A stretch of DNA of 64,000 nt from an uncultured Duodenibacillus sp. (GTDB taxonomy: Bacteria; Pseudomonadota; Gammaproteobacteria; Burkholderiales; Burkholderiaceae_F). Below the pieces are notes generated by a model. The model made no database searches, was not told the origin of the DNA, and saw only the letters and a program-made list of their open reading frames with translations. Positions within the stretch are counted from its first letter, which is position 1. Every line of letters starts with the position of its first letter. Shown piece by piece: positions 59,170 through 63,738 of the stretch. Position numbers and translations under genes: made by a program. The DNA lies in assembly GCA_944390745.1 (NCBI GenBank), contig CALXQK010000015.1:62001-126000 (forward strand), written 5' to 3'.

Positions 59170-59798
59170 ATTGCTTTCCTTCCGGCCGCAGACGACGGAA
59201 CAATTCGAAGCGGCCTTGCTTGTGGTTGATGACGCCCCTTCCCTCCCTGCTGCGCAAACAGCTCCTGCAGTAAACGCCGCCAAGGGCCGCGCGCAGACAC
59301 GGGCGCTGCGGCTCGTCCAGGGGACGACGGGGATCAGGCACGATTGACCTTCGCCGGCAGAAAGGAGACGCCCGCAAAAATCAGGATCGGATTTTAGAAG
59401 ACTGCAGCAATCTTCGCGTGAACGGTCATTCTTCCAGAGGAGCCAGGGGCAAAGGCGCTGGCGGTCAATCCCGCCGAAGCAAGCCCCTTGGACACGCCTG
59501 AATAGCCGCCCGCGCTGCCAGACGGCTTTCCCCTTGTGACGCGGACGCGGCCTTCCTCAAGGGCCGCGGCTGCAGAGCACGGGACCGATGCTGCCGCAGC
59601 GGCCGCTGATCACGACGAAACCGCTGGTTTCGGCCATGGCCGGAATTCCCTCACAAGGCGCTTTCCCGCCAAGGGAACAGAAGGCAGGTCAAGCGGCGCC
59701 TGCTCCCGAAAAATTGTTCCTCAAGCCAGCCTTGACCCTGCAGCCGCTTCAGGGTCGAGAGTAGTGAAAGTGAAACAATGTTTTTTTACTGGAACAAT
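59170..59798. other. 629-base gap with no recognised gene
   Basis: The gap separates the VUT gene (minus strand) from the HDAC-like relic (plus strand). A short minus-strand open stretch ends with a TAA near 59393-59395 (last residues HAKIAAVF), but it does not resemble any family I know. A 7-base-pair hairpin (GACCCTG and CAGGGTC, 59734-59756) lies ahead of the HDAC-like start. The rest has nothing I can support. Confidence 0.4.
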
Positions 59799-60919
59799 AT
59801 GACCACCAAAAAAACCGGCCTTATGTACTCGAAGGCCTTTGCCCAATACCATGCGGGCGACGGCTATCTTGTTTATCCGGCGGACACAGTGCTGCTGATG
59901 GCTTCTGACGACTACTACGACAAGCCCGAACGGGTCACGCAAGCCTACGACATGCTTGAAAAAACCGGGCTTTTGAAACAGCTGCAGGCAATAGAGCCGC
60001 GCAGGGCAACAGACGCAGAGCTTCTGAGCGCACACAGCAAAGCCTACATCCGCAAGCTCGACGAATTAAGCCGCGGCAGCGGCGGCATCGTCGGCGATCT
60101 TGCCCAGGTGGGGCATGGCGCACTCGACGTCATCCGTGAAGCCGTCGGCGGCGACCTGAACGCCCTCGATGCCGTCATGCAGGGCAAGGTGCAGAACGCA
60201 TTCTGCCTGCAGCGTCCGCCCGGAGGCCATGCCGAACGCGACTGCGGCTTTGGCTTTTGCATTGTCAACAACTTCAACATCATTGTGAATCGCGCCCGGG
60301 AGGTCTACGGCCTGAAGCGAATCCTGATCGCAGACTTCGACAACCACTGCAAAAAAGGGCATCGAAGACGCCTGGTACGACACCAATGAAGTGCTTTACG
60401 CCGAGGTCCACCAGACGGGATCCCTGCAGGAAAGCTGCGGCGCAGACCGCAACGCCGATATGACGGGCGCCGGCCAGGGCCGGGGCTTCAGCATTCCAAT
60501 CCCGATGCCGGCCGGTGCGGGCGAGCACGCCTATGTGAAGGCATTCAAGGAAATCATCGAGCCCATCGCCGATCAGTACAAGCCCGAACTCGTGGTTCTT
60601 GTGGCGAGGCTTTGCCTCGCACACCTTTGATCCGCTGTGCCGCCAGCAAGTCACGGCCAACGGCTACGGTCAGCTGACCGATATTGTGCGCAGCATCGCC
60701 GAAAGGCATTGCGGCGGAAAGCTCCTTGCCGTTCTCGAAGGCGGCACGGGAAACTACATGGCCTACTGCATACTGCGCGTCCTTGAGTCGCTAAGCGGCG
60801 TCAAGGCCGACGTCAAGGACCCGGTCGATGGTCTGCTGGTGCGAAACTTCGTCACGTGCGGCCAGAAGGCAGCCATTGACAAGGTCAAGGCCATCCAGTC
60901 GGCTTCCTGGAAGCTGTGA
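59799..60919 (+). pseudogene. HDAC-like (AcuC/AphA superfamily) gene with two frameshifts
   Basis: Three overlapping frames encode one protein of about 370 residues. The first covers MYSKAFAQYHAGDGYLVYP to RILIADFDNHCKK; the second covers GIEDAWYDTNEVLYAEVHQ to KPELVVLV; the third covers GFASHTFDPLCRQQVTANGYGQLTDIV to the end. One base too many in the A6 run (60351-60356) explains the first shift, and an extra A at 60607 the second. The second site is at a perfect hairpin (GCGAGGC-TTT-GCCTCGC). The zinc-site motifs also differ from active deacetylases: PPGGHA for PPGHHA, and GFASH for GFDAH. The gene may be dead, or these may be sequencing errors in a divergent enzyme. Confidence 0.8.
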
Positions 60920-61114: not shown

Positions 61115-62104
61115 TCAGGGCGCGATGCGCGGCTCAAAGCCTGCAAAAAACCGCAGGATGCGCTCGGGCAGCCACCCAAGGTCGCCCGGCGGATTGCCGC
61201 GCGGAAATCCAATGTGTCCGCCCTCCTCGGGCTGCTCGAGGTACACGCAGCTGCTCACATCCTTTTCCGTGGGCAGCGCCCAGACGGGCTGAAACGGATC
61301 GTTTCTGGCGTTGAGAAGCAGCAGCGGCACGCGCACGTTCTTGAGCACGGGCTTGGCCGAGCACTTCATCCAGTAGTCCATGGCGCTCTGAAAGCCGTGT
61401 ATGGGCGCGGTGTAGATCGCATCAAAGTCGTAGAGCGTGTGGCAGCGCCGCACCTTCTCGATGTCGATGAGGTCCGGATAGCGCCGCGCCTTCTCCATGA
61501 GCTTTTCCTTCAGGGTCGAGAGAAACATCTCGGCATAAAGCTTGTTGGCGCCGCGGCTGACGATCTCCGAACCGGCGACCAGATCAAGCGGGGCGCCCAC
61601 CGCAGCGGCTGCGGTGAGAAACCGAGCCTTCTCACCCCGGTCGCCCAGGTACTTCGCAAGAAAATTTCCCCCGAGACTGACGCCCGCGGCATAGATGGGG
61701 GCGTTGAGATAGCGCTGGTGCACAGTGGTGAGCATCCACTCGCAATCGTCGCTGTCGCCCGCAAAATAGGCGCGCGGCAATCGGTTGGGCAGTCCGCCGC
61801 AGCCGCGAAAGTGCGCCACGACGCCGCGCCAGCCGCGCTGCGCGCAGGCGTACATCAAGGCCTCGGCATAGTGGCTGTGCGAGTCGCCCTCCAGACCGTG
61901 AAAGTGCACGAGCACGGGCGCGGTGAGCGCCTCGGGCTCGGGCTCGGCCCAGTCAAAGAGCATGAAGTCGCCGTCGGGCGTATCGATCATCTCGCGGCGA
62001 TACGACACGGGCGGCCGCGGCGAGAGCCGCGCGGGCACCACCGTCTGCAGATGCGCCCCCGGCAGCCAGCGGGGCGCGACATAGTCCGAGGCAATGACAG
62101 GCAT
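61115..62104 (-). CDS. YheT-like alpha/beta hydrolase
   Basis: The 329-residue protein matches the AB_hydrolase/YheT family: a start with WLPGAHLQTVVPARLSPRP, LVHFHGLEGDSHSHYAEALMYACAQRGWRGVVAHFRGCGG, then the nucleophile elbow GVSLGGNFLAKYLG near residue 150 (Ser), the acid in LNARNDPFQP and the base in EEGGHIGFPRG. The substrate is unknown; relatives hydrolyse esters or lipids. The frame runs open upstream of the ATG at 62104, but MPVIASDYVAPRWLPGAHLQT is the family start. Confidence 0.88.
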   Translation of the reverse strand: MPVIASDYVAPRWLPGAHLQTVVPARLSPRPPVSYRREMIDTPDGDFMLFDWAEPEPEALTAPVLVHFHGLEGDSHSHYAEALMYACAQRGWRGVVAHFRGCGGLPNRLPRAYFAGDSDDCEWMLTTVHQRYLNAPIYAAGVSLGGNFLAKYLGDRGEKARFLTAAAAVGAPLDLVAGSEIVSRGANKLYAEMFLSTLKEKLMEKARRYPDLIDIEKVRRCHTLYDFDAIYTAPIHGFQSAMDYWMKCSAKPVLKNVRVPLLLLNARNDPFQPVWALPTEKDVSSCVYLEQPEEGGHIGFPRGNPPGDLGWLPERILRFFAGFEPRIAP

Positions 62105-62262: not shown

Positions 62263-62291
62263 TTGCACTTGCCGGCCCGACGCTGTAGAGT
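62263..62291 (+). promoter_or_regulatory. Possible promoter of the aroG leader
   Basis: TTGCAC (62263-62268) and TAGAGT (62286-62291) lie 17 bases apart. Each matches sigma-70 consensus only in part. A start site near 62298 would leave 66 bases before the leader ATG. Confidence 0.45.
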
Positions 62292-62363
62292 GTATCGGCG
62301 TACGGGCGGCCAGGGCATGGTGCTCCGGTCCCCCGATGCAAACGAAAACCGATCCAGAGAGCC

Positions 62364-62444
62364 ATGCTGCAGCCTGCCGCGCGATTTTATTTCTTCTCCT
62401 TTTATTTCTGCTCCAGGGCGGAAGGGATGAACGCGCACGCTTGA
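62364..62444 (+). CDS. Phe/Tyr-rich leader peptide of aroG
   Basis: A 26-residue frame starts at an ATG at 62364 and ends with TGA at 62442-62444. Residues 8-16 read FYFFSFYFC: five Phe and two Tyr in nine codons. An AGAG ribosome site lies 5 bases ahead. It is too short for usual gene finding, but has the classic form of an attenuation leader, like the pheA leader in E. coli. It is followed by a terminator (62475-62509) and then aroG, whose product is the first enzyme of aromatic amino acid synthesis. Stalling at Phe or Tyr codons would favour an antiterminator. Confidence 0.8.
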   Translation: MLQPAARFYFFSFYFCSRAEGMNAHA

Positions 62445-62481
62445 AACAGCACCATCAGGCTCAGCCAGAGAACCAACCGCC
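62417..62481 (+). promoter_or_regulatory. Possible antiterminator pairing of the aroG leader
   Basis: GGCGG at 62417-62421, just after the aromatic codons, is complementary to CCGCC at 62477-62481, the left arm of the terminator. If a stalled ribosome keeps an upstream segment from pairing, these could pair and prevent the terminator. I did not fold the whole leader. Confidence 0.5.
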
Positions 62482-62509
62482 AGGACCAGACAAGCCCGGC
62501 GGTTTTTTT
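62475..62509 (+). terminator. Attenuator terminator ahead of aroG
   Basis: AACCGCC (62475-62481) pairs with GGCGGTT (62498-62504) around a 16-base loop and is followed by a run of T. It lies ahead of, not after, a gene on the same strand, which marks it as an attenuator rather than an end-of-gene terminator. Confidence 0.75.
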
Positions 62510-62606: not shown

Positions 62607-63668
62607 ATGCGTCACAATACCGACGACCTTCGCATCAAAGAAATCCGCGAGCTTACGCCCCCGGCGCATCTCATCCGCGAGTTCCCCTGCGAGGACGTGG
62701 CCTCGCAGACGGTGCACCGGGCCCGCGAGGCGGCCCACAACATCCTGCACGGTCTTGACGACCGGCTTCTGGTGATCGTGGGGCCCTGCTCGATTCACGA
62801 CCCCGAGGCCGCCCGCGAATATGCCTCGCGGCTTTCCGAAGTGCGCCGCAAGCTGCAGGGCGATCTGGAAATCATCATGCGCGTGTACTTCGAAAAGCCG
62901 CGCACGACCGTGGGCTGGAAGGGCCTCATCAACGATCCGGATATGGACGGCTCCTGCCGCATCAACCACGGACTGCGCGTGGCGCGCGAACTGATTCTGG
63001 ACATCGTCAACATGGAGCTGCCCACGGGAGTGGAGTATCTCGACACGATCTCCCCGCAGTACATCGCCGATCTGGTGAGCTGGGGCGCCATCGGCGCGCG
63101 CACCACCGAAAGCCAGGTGCACCGCCAGCTTGCCAGCGGCCTGTCGTGCCCGGTGGGCTTCAAGAACGGCACCGACGGAAACGTCAAGATCGCCTGCGAC
63201 GCCATCGCCGCGGCCGAGCACTCGCACTCGTTTCTGTCGGTCACCAAGGGCGGCATCTCGGCCATCGTCACCACCACGGGCAACGAGGACTGCCACATCA
63301 TTCTGCGCGGCGGCAAGACGCCCAACTACGACGCCCAAAGCGTCAACGCCGCCTGTGAGATCCTCAAGGCCAACAACCACCGCGAGATCGTCATGATCGA
63401 CGCCTCGCACTCGAACTCGCACAAGAAGTTCAAGGAGCAGATCCCGGTGGTTGAAAACATCTGCAAGCAGGTCGCCGGGGGCGATCAGCGCATCATCGGC
63501 GTCATGATCGAATCCAACCTCGTCGAGGGCAGCCAGAAGATCGACCTCGAAAAGGGGCTCGTCTACGGACAGTCCGTCACCGACGGATGCATCGGCTGGG
63601 AGGACACGGTGAAGCTGCTCGGCGAACTCGCCCGCGCCGTGCGCGACCGCCGCTCGCGCAACTCCTAG
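62607..63668 (+). CDS. aroG: 3-deoxy-7-phosphoheptulonate synthase (DAHP synthase, class I)
   Basis: The 353-residue enzyme is a class I DAHP synthase of the AroG type: DDLRIKEIRELTPPAHLI at the N-terminus, VIVGPCSIHDPEAAREYA, IIMRVYFEKPRTTVGWKGLINDPDMDG, GAIGARTTESQVHRQLASGLSCPVGFKNGTDG and the metal sites in CDAIAA and VMIDASHSN. It joins phosphoenolpyruvate and erythrose 4-phosphate. The N-terminal DDLRIKEI region and the segment around residue 180 are the feedback-binding region of the AroG family. I chose the ATG at 62607, just after a GGGAGA ribosome site. The gene lies behind the Phe/Tyr leader and attenuator. Confidence 0.97.
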   Translation: MRHNTDDLRIKEIRELTPPAHLIREFPCEDVASQTVHRAREAAHNILHGLDDRLLVIVGPCSIHDPEAAREYASRLSEVRRKLQGDLEIIMRVYFEKPRTTVGWKGLINDPDMDGSCRINHGLRVARELILDIVNMELPTGVEYLDTISPQYIADLVSWGAIGARTTESQVHRQLASGLSCPVGFKNGTDGNVKIACDAIAAAEHSHSFLSVTKGGISAIVTTTGNEDCHIILRGGKTPNYDAQSVNAACEILKANNHREIVMIDASHSNSHKKFKEQIPVVENICKQVAGGDQRIIGVMIESNLVEGSQKIDLEKGLVYGQSVTDGCIGWEDTVKLLGELARAVRDRRSRNS

Positions 63669-63683: not shown

Positions 63684-63738
63684 CAAAAAAAGGCGCCGGC
63701 CCTCCCTGCGCGGGGAGGCCGGCCCCTTTTTTTTGCGT
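63684..63738. terminator. Bidirectional terminator between aroG and tgt
   Basis: A GC-rich stem (GGCGCCGGCC with GGCCGGCCCC, one mismatch, and an inner TCCC/GGGGA part) lies between two convergent genes, with a run of A before it and eight T after it. Confidence 0.85.

Follow-up and report, generated by a model that had tools for sequence, protein, structure and literature searches.

The cell controls the synthesis of all aromatic amino acids at the first reaction of the shikimate pathway, and textbook accounts of E. coli have the DAHP synthase genes for that reaction repressed by the TyrR and TrpR proteins. RNA-based control of the aromatic pathway is also classic, with the E. coli pheA leader (pheL) being read by the ribosome, rich in Phe codons, and able to form alternative stems and an intrinsic terminator in front of an aromatic pathway gene. 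The aroG leader described here appears to share all of these features, but pheL controls pheA rather than a DAHP synthase and carries a signal of Phe only. In Corynebacterium glutamicum, the aroR leader of aroF places both Phe and Tyr codons before a DAHP synthase gene and acts through ribosome-mediated attenuation, according to two reports (PMC11802643, PMC4046766). The aroR leader differs in being actinobacterial, in having a Phe-Tyr-Phe triplet as opposed to 5 to 10 aromatic codons, and in reportedly answering to Phe and not to Tyr, and it may be regarded as a functional parallel to the leader in our window. The uORFC-13-1 motif before aroF in Acholeplasma is similar in joining a predicted uORF containing Phe to a terminator ahead of a DAHP synthase gene, but it is a prediction only, has at least one Phe codon, and is restricted to Acholeplasma and environmental sequences (PMC8632094). 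Attenuators have also been suggested before proteobacterial DAHP synthase genes, specifically in the DAHP synthase-tyrA operons of Vibrio and before aroF of Shewanella and E. coli; these cases differ in gene arrangement and in group, and Tyr-tRNA is named for aroF (PMC1173090, PMC2659441). These lineages possess TyrR regulons, and both TyrR and TrpR are reported absent outside the gammaproteobacteria (PMC5343134).

No description of an aroG attenuator in Burkholderiales was found in the open-access literature, which omits most subscription papers; the earlier note on this DNA had likewise remarked that such an element is little described in the lineage. Because attenuation itself is classic (trp, pheA) and an aromatic DAHP synthase leader is known from C. 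glutamicum, we regard the system as a known mechanism in a new combination of gene and lineage. What is new is an attenuator that is widespread and well conserved, has a mixed Phe/Tyr signal, and occurs in specialized versions in duplicated genes, with no new principle involved. An aroG attenuator of this kind would be how part of the betaproteobacteria can set the first shikimate step, as an RNA switch for which no regulator protein is needed.

Existing RNA families do not capture the element. At the gathering threshold, no Rfam family matched in the window and none matched in the aroG leaders of 12 related loci, where the only match was an SRP RNA away from the leader. A permissive scan of eight loci returned sub-threshold Phe_leader and Leu_leader matches together with chance hits. 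For Phe_leader (RF01859), the aroG leaders reached 35.2 bits (L065, the best of the eight) and 29.2 bits (L076) versus a gathering threshold of 55, and no match was listed for the window's own locus (L002), one of the eight.

The window, meaning the whole stretch of 64,000 nucleotides that was analyzed, covers positions 62001 to 126000 of contig CALXQK010000015.1 in a 2.2-Mb genome. The closest named relatives of its aroG belong to Duodenibacillus (93%, 82%, and 78% identity), within the Sutterellaceae of the Burkholderiales. A candidate promoter, a leader frame, GGCGG, CCGCC, and a second GGCGG with a U tract follow one another in that order in the 500 bases that separate a divergent alpha/beta-hydrolase gene from aroG (Table 1). 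Since that neighbor is divergent, the leader terminator cannot end its transcript, and an assignment as the terminator of the upstream gene was ruled out. The 26-residue frame claimed in the earlier note is present at 62364-62444 and ends in TGA, and its five Phe and two Tyr codons, described as lying within nine codons, are packed slightly more tightly, into eight. The claimed intrinsic terminator before aroG and the claimed pairing of a GGCGG just after the aromatic codons with CCGCC were also found, all coordinates given in that note proved correct, and the base beside this pairing core covaries in both alternative stems, as detailed below.

Table 1. Features of the aroG leader region of the window (window coordinates)
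Feature	Position	Strand	Description
Candidate promoter	62263..62291	+	TTGCAC, 17-nt spacer, TAGAGT; 8 of 12 consensus bases; putative, picked by eye
Leader peptide frame	62364..62444	+	26 codons + TGA; reads MLQPAARFYFFSFYFCSRAEGMNAHA
Control codons F Y F F S F Y F	62385..62408	+	Codons 8-15; five Phe and two Tyr in eight codons
Region 2, GGCGG	62417..62421	+	Antiterminator 5' arm; 8 nt past last control codon
Intrinsic terminator	62475..62509	+	Stem 62475-62484/62495-62504, read as AACCGCCAGG, loop of 10, CCCGGCGGTT; U tract of seven T at 62503-62509
Region 3, CCGCC	62477..62481	+	Common to antiterminator (with 62417-62421) and terminator (with 62498-62502)
Region 4, GGCGG	62498..62502	+	Terminator partner of region 3
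aroG, DAHP synthase type I	62607..63668	+	NCBIfam AroG 568.7 bits (cut-off 568); Pfam DAHP_synth_1
GC-rich hairpin, then T run	63695..63734	+	Directly 3' of aroG; read from sequence

If the candidate promoter is used, transcription would be expected to start near 62298; a consensus scan gave no sigma-70 promoter at the leader, with the candidate scoring below its threshold. By eye, no strong Shine-Dalgarno sequence precedes the leader ATG. In two other loci, from Duganella and Rugamonas (L043 and L054), TATAGT boxes were seen by eye only 6 and 27 nt 5' of the leader ATG, and because these boxes lie so near the start codon, the leader peptide there may come from a nearly leaderless transcript. 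The hairpin directly downstream of aroG is likely the terminator of a single-gene aroG transcript. Elsewhere in the window, a histone-deacetylase-like gene on the forward strand (59778-60916) is split over three successive frames, which match PF00850 profile positions 3-156, 182-236, and 237-282 when the pieces are scanned separately; the gene looks disrupted by frameshifts, unless the assembly contains an error at this point.

The aromatic cluster stands out both in the window and against simulated sequence. Among its 1,384 short frames, the leader frame alone has at least seven Phe or Tyr in nine codons, and 20 first-order Markov sequences of 64 kb each yielded zero frames of such density. 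The terminator alone folds at -13.9 kcal/mol (z -3.18), with none of 200 shuffles as stable, whereas the fold of the whole leader is ordinary compared to shuffles (z -1.37). A consensus terminator scan, whose loop limit was 8, listed no terminator at the leader.

To place the leader in a comparative context, we assembled 110 aroG loci: 80 from named organisms and 30, the window's own included, from its family, in which 46 of the 67 genomes searched gave a match. The family loci represent 30 of the 46 matching genomes, and one further genome (G020) was read later. A leader was counted when an ATG-started frame with at least five Phe, Tyr, or Trp in ten codons was followed by GGCG(G/C) and then by a CCG(C/T)C...G(G/A)CGG-T terminator, and the positions of region 2 and the terminator in the resulting leaders were located by this pattern. 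Conservation among relatives had been set beforehand as the test on which the earlier note could fail, and the whole arrangement of frame, antiterminator, and terminator is kept at 106 of the 110 loci. The four loci without it are L009 (only 37 nt upstream), L082, L101, and L109; in L082 the best frame lies 437 nt upstream with CCGCC absent nearby, and this locus was dropped by hand before the frame count. Named carriers include Duodenibacillus, Paraburkholderia, Caballeronia, Burkholderia, Cupriavidus, Ralstonia, Massilia, Duganella, Rugamonas, Undibacterium, and Oxalicibacterium. Some contigs are repeated in the set (L032-L034, L047, and L048 duplicate L003, L007, L008, L022, and L025), and because the 110 loci are not independent, we used 50 representatives (string-similarity ratio below 0.90) for the analyses of codons and structure.

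Across the 50 representatives, we counted 233 Phe, 103 Tyr, and 12 Trp codons in the stretch bounded by the first and last aromatic codons; every representative has both Phe and Tyr in this stretch, and 12 have Trp. Changes at aromatic codons, counted over 34 disjoint nearest pairs, comprise 30 synonymous, 8 aromatic-to-aromatic, and 12 between aromatic and non-aromatic codons, one of the latter being a single-base change. From the genetic code alone, with transition bias ignored, unselected single-base changes would give approximately seven non-aromatic or stop changes per synonymous one. The synonymous excess over this expectation shows selection on the amino acids read in the aromatic stretch. 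Just 3' of the control codons, the bases CTGGCGGATCG are kept in another frame by some Caballeronia, Paraburkholderia, and Burkholderia leaders (L037, L049, L058, and L074; compare, for example, L035 with L049), and since these frame-shifted leaders retain the same bases, selection there acts at the level of the RNA. Outside the control codons and pairing arms, the leader is poorly conserved, with a mean column identity of 46%.

Regions 2 and 4 compete for the same CCGCC, so that the antiterminator stem excludes the terminator. The GGCGG/CCGCC core pairs provide no covariation evidence, being invariant and located by pattern. The base beside the core can pair in the antiterminator in 29 of the 50 representatives (TA 19, CG 7, AT 3) and in the terminator in 40 (TA 30, CG 7, AT 3), and the outer terminator pair also covaries (A-U 46, G-C 4); none of 2,000 shuffles equaled any of these counts, which are not to be read as probabilities because related sequences share history. 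Other pairs covary weakly, with 7% and 10% of shuffles reaching the observed values for the antiterminator and 1% and 30% for the terminator. The consensus structure of the leader alignment contains the terminator stem only. A protector stem (1:2), which would sequester region 2 when no ribosome is present, exceeds its own shuffles in 35 of the 50 leaders, with a median of 0.86 versus a shuffled mean of 0.75, and is not clearly above what base composition gives.

We modeled switching by blocking a ribosome footprint codon by codon and calculating the antiterminator probability in RNA ending just before region 4. For the window leader, an A site anywhere within codons 3-13 gives a predicted probability of 1.00; the value drops to 0.62 at Tyr14, to 0.13 at Phe15, and to 0.00 over codons 16-25, for which a terminator probability of 0.99 is predicted in the full RNA. 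The terminator also reaches 0.99 without a ribosome. When the leader was folded with and without a ribosome, occupancy of codons 8-13 thus led in the model to the antiterminator and occupancy of codons 16-25 to the terminator, as the reading in the earlier note would have it. Over the 50 leaders, the median antiterminator probability is 0.07 without a ribosome and 0.99 when the ribosome stalls at the beginning or in the middle of the aromatic codons; it is 0.74 for a stall at the final one and 0.09 at the stop codon. The predicted behavior is not uniform at the two extremes. With the ribosome at the stop codon, the antiterminator reaches 0.94 in the window leader and exceeds 0.5 in 44% of the 50 leaders, and it exceeds 0.5 in 26% of them without any ribosome. 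For the full RNA at equilibrium with a stalled ribosome, the terminator is above 0.5 in 88 to 98% of leaders, and the antiterminator of the window leader reaches 0.56 to 0.94 on codons 8-11 and 0.20 to 0.25 on codons 12-13. Because the terminator usually wins at full-RNA equilibrium even under a stall, the modeled switch must be at least partly kinetic.

The leader is tightly linked to aroG. A covariance model built from the 50 leaders and run on 200 genomes of the order matched 61 of them at E 0.01 or better. The 45 strong hits (E 3e-7 or better) are without exception located 27 to 149 nt upstream of aroG on the same strand. Among the 74 model hits listed, 68 were compared with gene positions and 6 weak rows were left out; 46 of the 68 adjoin aroG (45 strong and 1 weak), spread over 14 family codes, and the 22 that do not are all weak. 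In some of the leaders found across the order, the cluster is free of Tyr codons (L126, L128, L132, and L144). AroG itself was matched in 139 of the 200 genomes, with 150 genes listed from 132 genomes, and 104 of these genes have no model hit. A scan of the upstream DNA of 60 of the 104 (one shortened by a contig end) found no such leader, the best being L195, which has a TTG-started frame with 5 aromatic residues in 10 and lacks the terminator. Presence in the order is therefore patchy. The leader extends further than the earlier note supposed, being kept among relatives and reaching much of the Burkholderiales, but not throughout; even in the window's own family, the aroG of one genus, that of the later-read G020, is not preceded by it (L161).

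Divergent DAHP synthase genes of the family, at 45 to 50% identity, carried the leader in 0 of 20 cases. These 20 were taken from 29 rows below 52% identity, some of them fragments, and this type is the sole match in three genomes (G024, G055, and G057). Upstream of one divergent gene (L276) lies a frame in which 5 of 10 residues are aromatic, but the 2-3-4 pattern is absent. Two genus codes of the family have few or no AroG matches at E 0.001, namely g2 (0 of 9 genomes) and g16 (2 of 12, both of the divergent type); these organisms may use a different enzyme or take up aromatic amino acids from outside.

In the window's genome, aroG is the only DAHP synthase found, with a single match to its protein and no type II enzyme found; a second match to the DAHP synthase Pfam model proved to be 3-deoxy-8-phosphooctulonate synthase. 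No other strong leader-model hit occurs in this genome, the next being at E 0.35 and covering the terminator part only. Models for TrpR and for the TyrR-type helix-turn-helix matched the E. coli control and found nothing in the window's genome.

The anatomy of the leader, its conservation, its two covarying stems, the selection seen at its aromatic codons, and its linkage to aroG all point in one direction, and we consider it very probable that aroG is controlled by a ribosome-mediated transcription attenuator of the trp/pheA type, with a leader that may be read for Phe, Tyr, or both. The classic attenuation layout proposed in the earlier note gains support from the conservation, the synonymous excess in the aromatic codons, the switching predicted in silico, and the lack of a TyrR or TrpR match. 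How transcription, stalling, and the cellular response would proceed we infer as follows. RNA polymerase would start 5' of 62364, and a ribosome would begin the leader peptide. When charged Phe- or Tyr-tRNA is scarce, the ribosome would stall on codons 8-13 and leave region 2 free to pair with region 3 before region 4 is made, so that no terminator forms and aroG is transcribed. When both tRNAs are plentiful, the ribosome would cover region 2, regions 3 and 4 would form the terminator, and transcription would stop near 62509. Without a ribosome, region 2 would be held by upstream sequence, and termination would again be expected.

Duplicated aroG genes allow leader codons to be compared with the enzyme. 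In one genus of the window's family (code g14), five genomes carry two aroG copies each and lack a divergent DAHP synthase. In both G043 and G046, MSFASDFYYYGYYLYRPRGGRVRRI (6 Tyr and 1 Phe in the best ten codons) precedes one copy and MSFSMIRSARFCFSFGFFRCQAERVVEGV (5 Phe, no Tyr) precedes the other. The corresponding pair of leaders in G044 and G045 consists of MLNHVYGAYYYYGFFRLPAERVLWCA (5 Tyr, 2 Phe) and, at the second copy, MNYRARFYFTFNFFPC... (5 Phe, 1 Tyr). The GGCGG-CCGCC-GGCGG arrangement lies 3' of all eight of these leaders (copy pairs, each with one Phe- and one Tyr-dominated leader: L012/L283, L016/L284, L013/L285, and L014/L286). Ser211 of the window's enzyme aligns with Ser of the Phe-sensitive E. 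coli enzyme (5cks) and with Gly of the Tyr-sensitive enzyme (6agm and 6agl), at a position that we take, from work on the yeast and Neisseria enzymes, to set inhibitor specificity. The residue at this position is Gly in the four copies with Tyr leaders and Ser in the four copies with Phe leaders (Ser in L012 and L016, for example). Across 96 distinct combinations of leader and residue, Gly occurs only with the two strongly Tyr-dominated leaders, those with 5 or 6 Tyr. Where Tyr leads only narrowly, as in L136 and L141 (3 Tyr and 2 Phe each), the residue is Ser. Divergent, leaderless enzymes have Gly in all eight cases read (from a sample of 10, with L301 and L304 left out). In G047, one copy combines a mixed leader with Ser, and the second has Gly and no leader in 416 nt upstream.

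A leader type that moves in step with the pocket residue is what would be expected if the codons are the sensor, although the independent events are few. The two copies of G043 and G046 are sisters in a tree (97/98), apart from the copies of G044 and G045, and the split of leader and pocket therefore seems to have happened twice; gene conversion could mimic such a double split. The duplicated copies offer a natural test of how regulation of the gene and inhibition of the enzyme become matched to one amino acid.

These comparisons also bear on other readings of the leader. It is possible, if rather doubtful, that the attenuator of the window effectively senses Phe only and that its Tyr codons are passengers, as reported for C. 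glutamicum aroR. The aroF operon of that organism is unaffected by Tyr availability, according to a review (PMC11802643). Phe codons outnumber Tyr codons by 233 to 103 in the representative leaders, Tyr-free clusters exist in the four leaders noted above and in one duplicated copy, and the window's enzyme carries the Ser of Phe-sensitive enzymes. Against this, at least one Tyr codon is kept in the stretch in all 50 representatives of the first set, and Tyr-dominated leaders are present in a related genus. We think it improbable that the terminator mainly serves to release a trans-acting short RNA or the leader peptide, with control of aroG secondary. Short 5' leader transcripts, 82 in number and arising from processing or attenuation, are reported from Burkholderia cenocepacia, where they are common (PMC5688073), but the poor conservation of the leader outside its control codons and arms and the linkage of all strong model hits to aroG argue against such a role.

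A terminator before a biosynthetic gene is also typical of riboswitches, and yet we see very little prospect of a metabolite riboswitch or a T-box here in place of an element read by the ribosome, given that no Rfam riboswitch or T-box matched at the gathering threshold in the window or the 12 related loci, that the consensus structure is the terminator stem only, and that the conserved element is a reading frame. That the frame rich in Phe and Tyr arose by chance in a pyrimidine-rich tract, with the hairpin an ordinary terminator, has next to no likelihood. Such tracts do read as Phe, and the whole-leader fold is ordinary, but this explanation is already contradicted by the comparative data, in which the frame is kept, the synonymous excess and the covariation are seen, and the upstream neighbor of the window's aroG lies on the other strand.

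The ribosome-read attenuator may also have traveled beyond the Burkholderiales. A sample of 185 genomes of the class gave six matches, which are the window's own genome, a second genome from its order, two with family code f63, one with f92, and L209, whose match looks spurious by eye. The two f63 genomes, from another order of the same class, have strong hits upstream of aroG, such as MNAARASFYFWYYFPKPLAEEGLRSP. In f63 as a whole, 18 of 79 genomes have a leader-model hit, and aroG was confirmed downstream in the four checked (L206, L207, L211, and L217). A tree of 93 DAHP synthases places the four f63 proteins within a supported group of nine (SH-aLRT 97), whose remaining five members are Burkholderiales proteins, three with a leader and two without. 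The tree was made by a rapid method; 28 of its 89 inner branches are open, and the branch leading to L210 is very long. Gene and attenuator were probably moved together into f63 by transfer, which is the simplest reading because the leader is so widespread in Burkholderiales. Leader presence on the same tree requires 13 changes versus 31 for shuffled labels, and an old presence with many losses is likely on this basis, although weak branches and sampling leave the count loose.

Taken together with the duplicated genes, these patterns suggest a broader proposition, to which we give about even chances: the control codons co-evolve with the feedback specificity of the enzyme, duplication having twice produced a Tyr/Gly and a Phe/Ser copy, with the mixed leader of single-copy genes being unspecialized and the gene and its attenuator being mobile between orders as a unit. 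The f92 match (L210) lies at a distant DAHP synthase of 38% identity, whose gene begins at 1735 and whose leader, around 1501-1602, reads ACFFYFSFF. Its terminator differs in sequence (CCCCCAG...CTGGGGG), and L210 may be an independent attenuator of the same kind.
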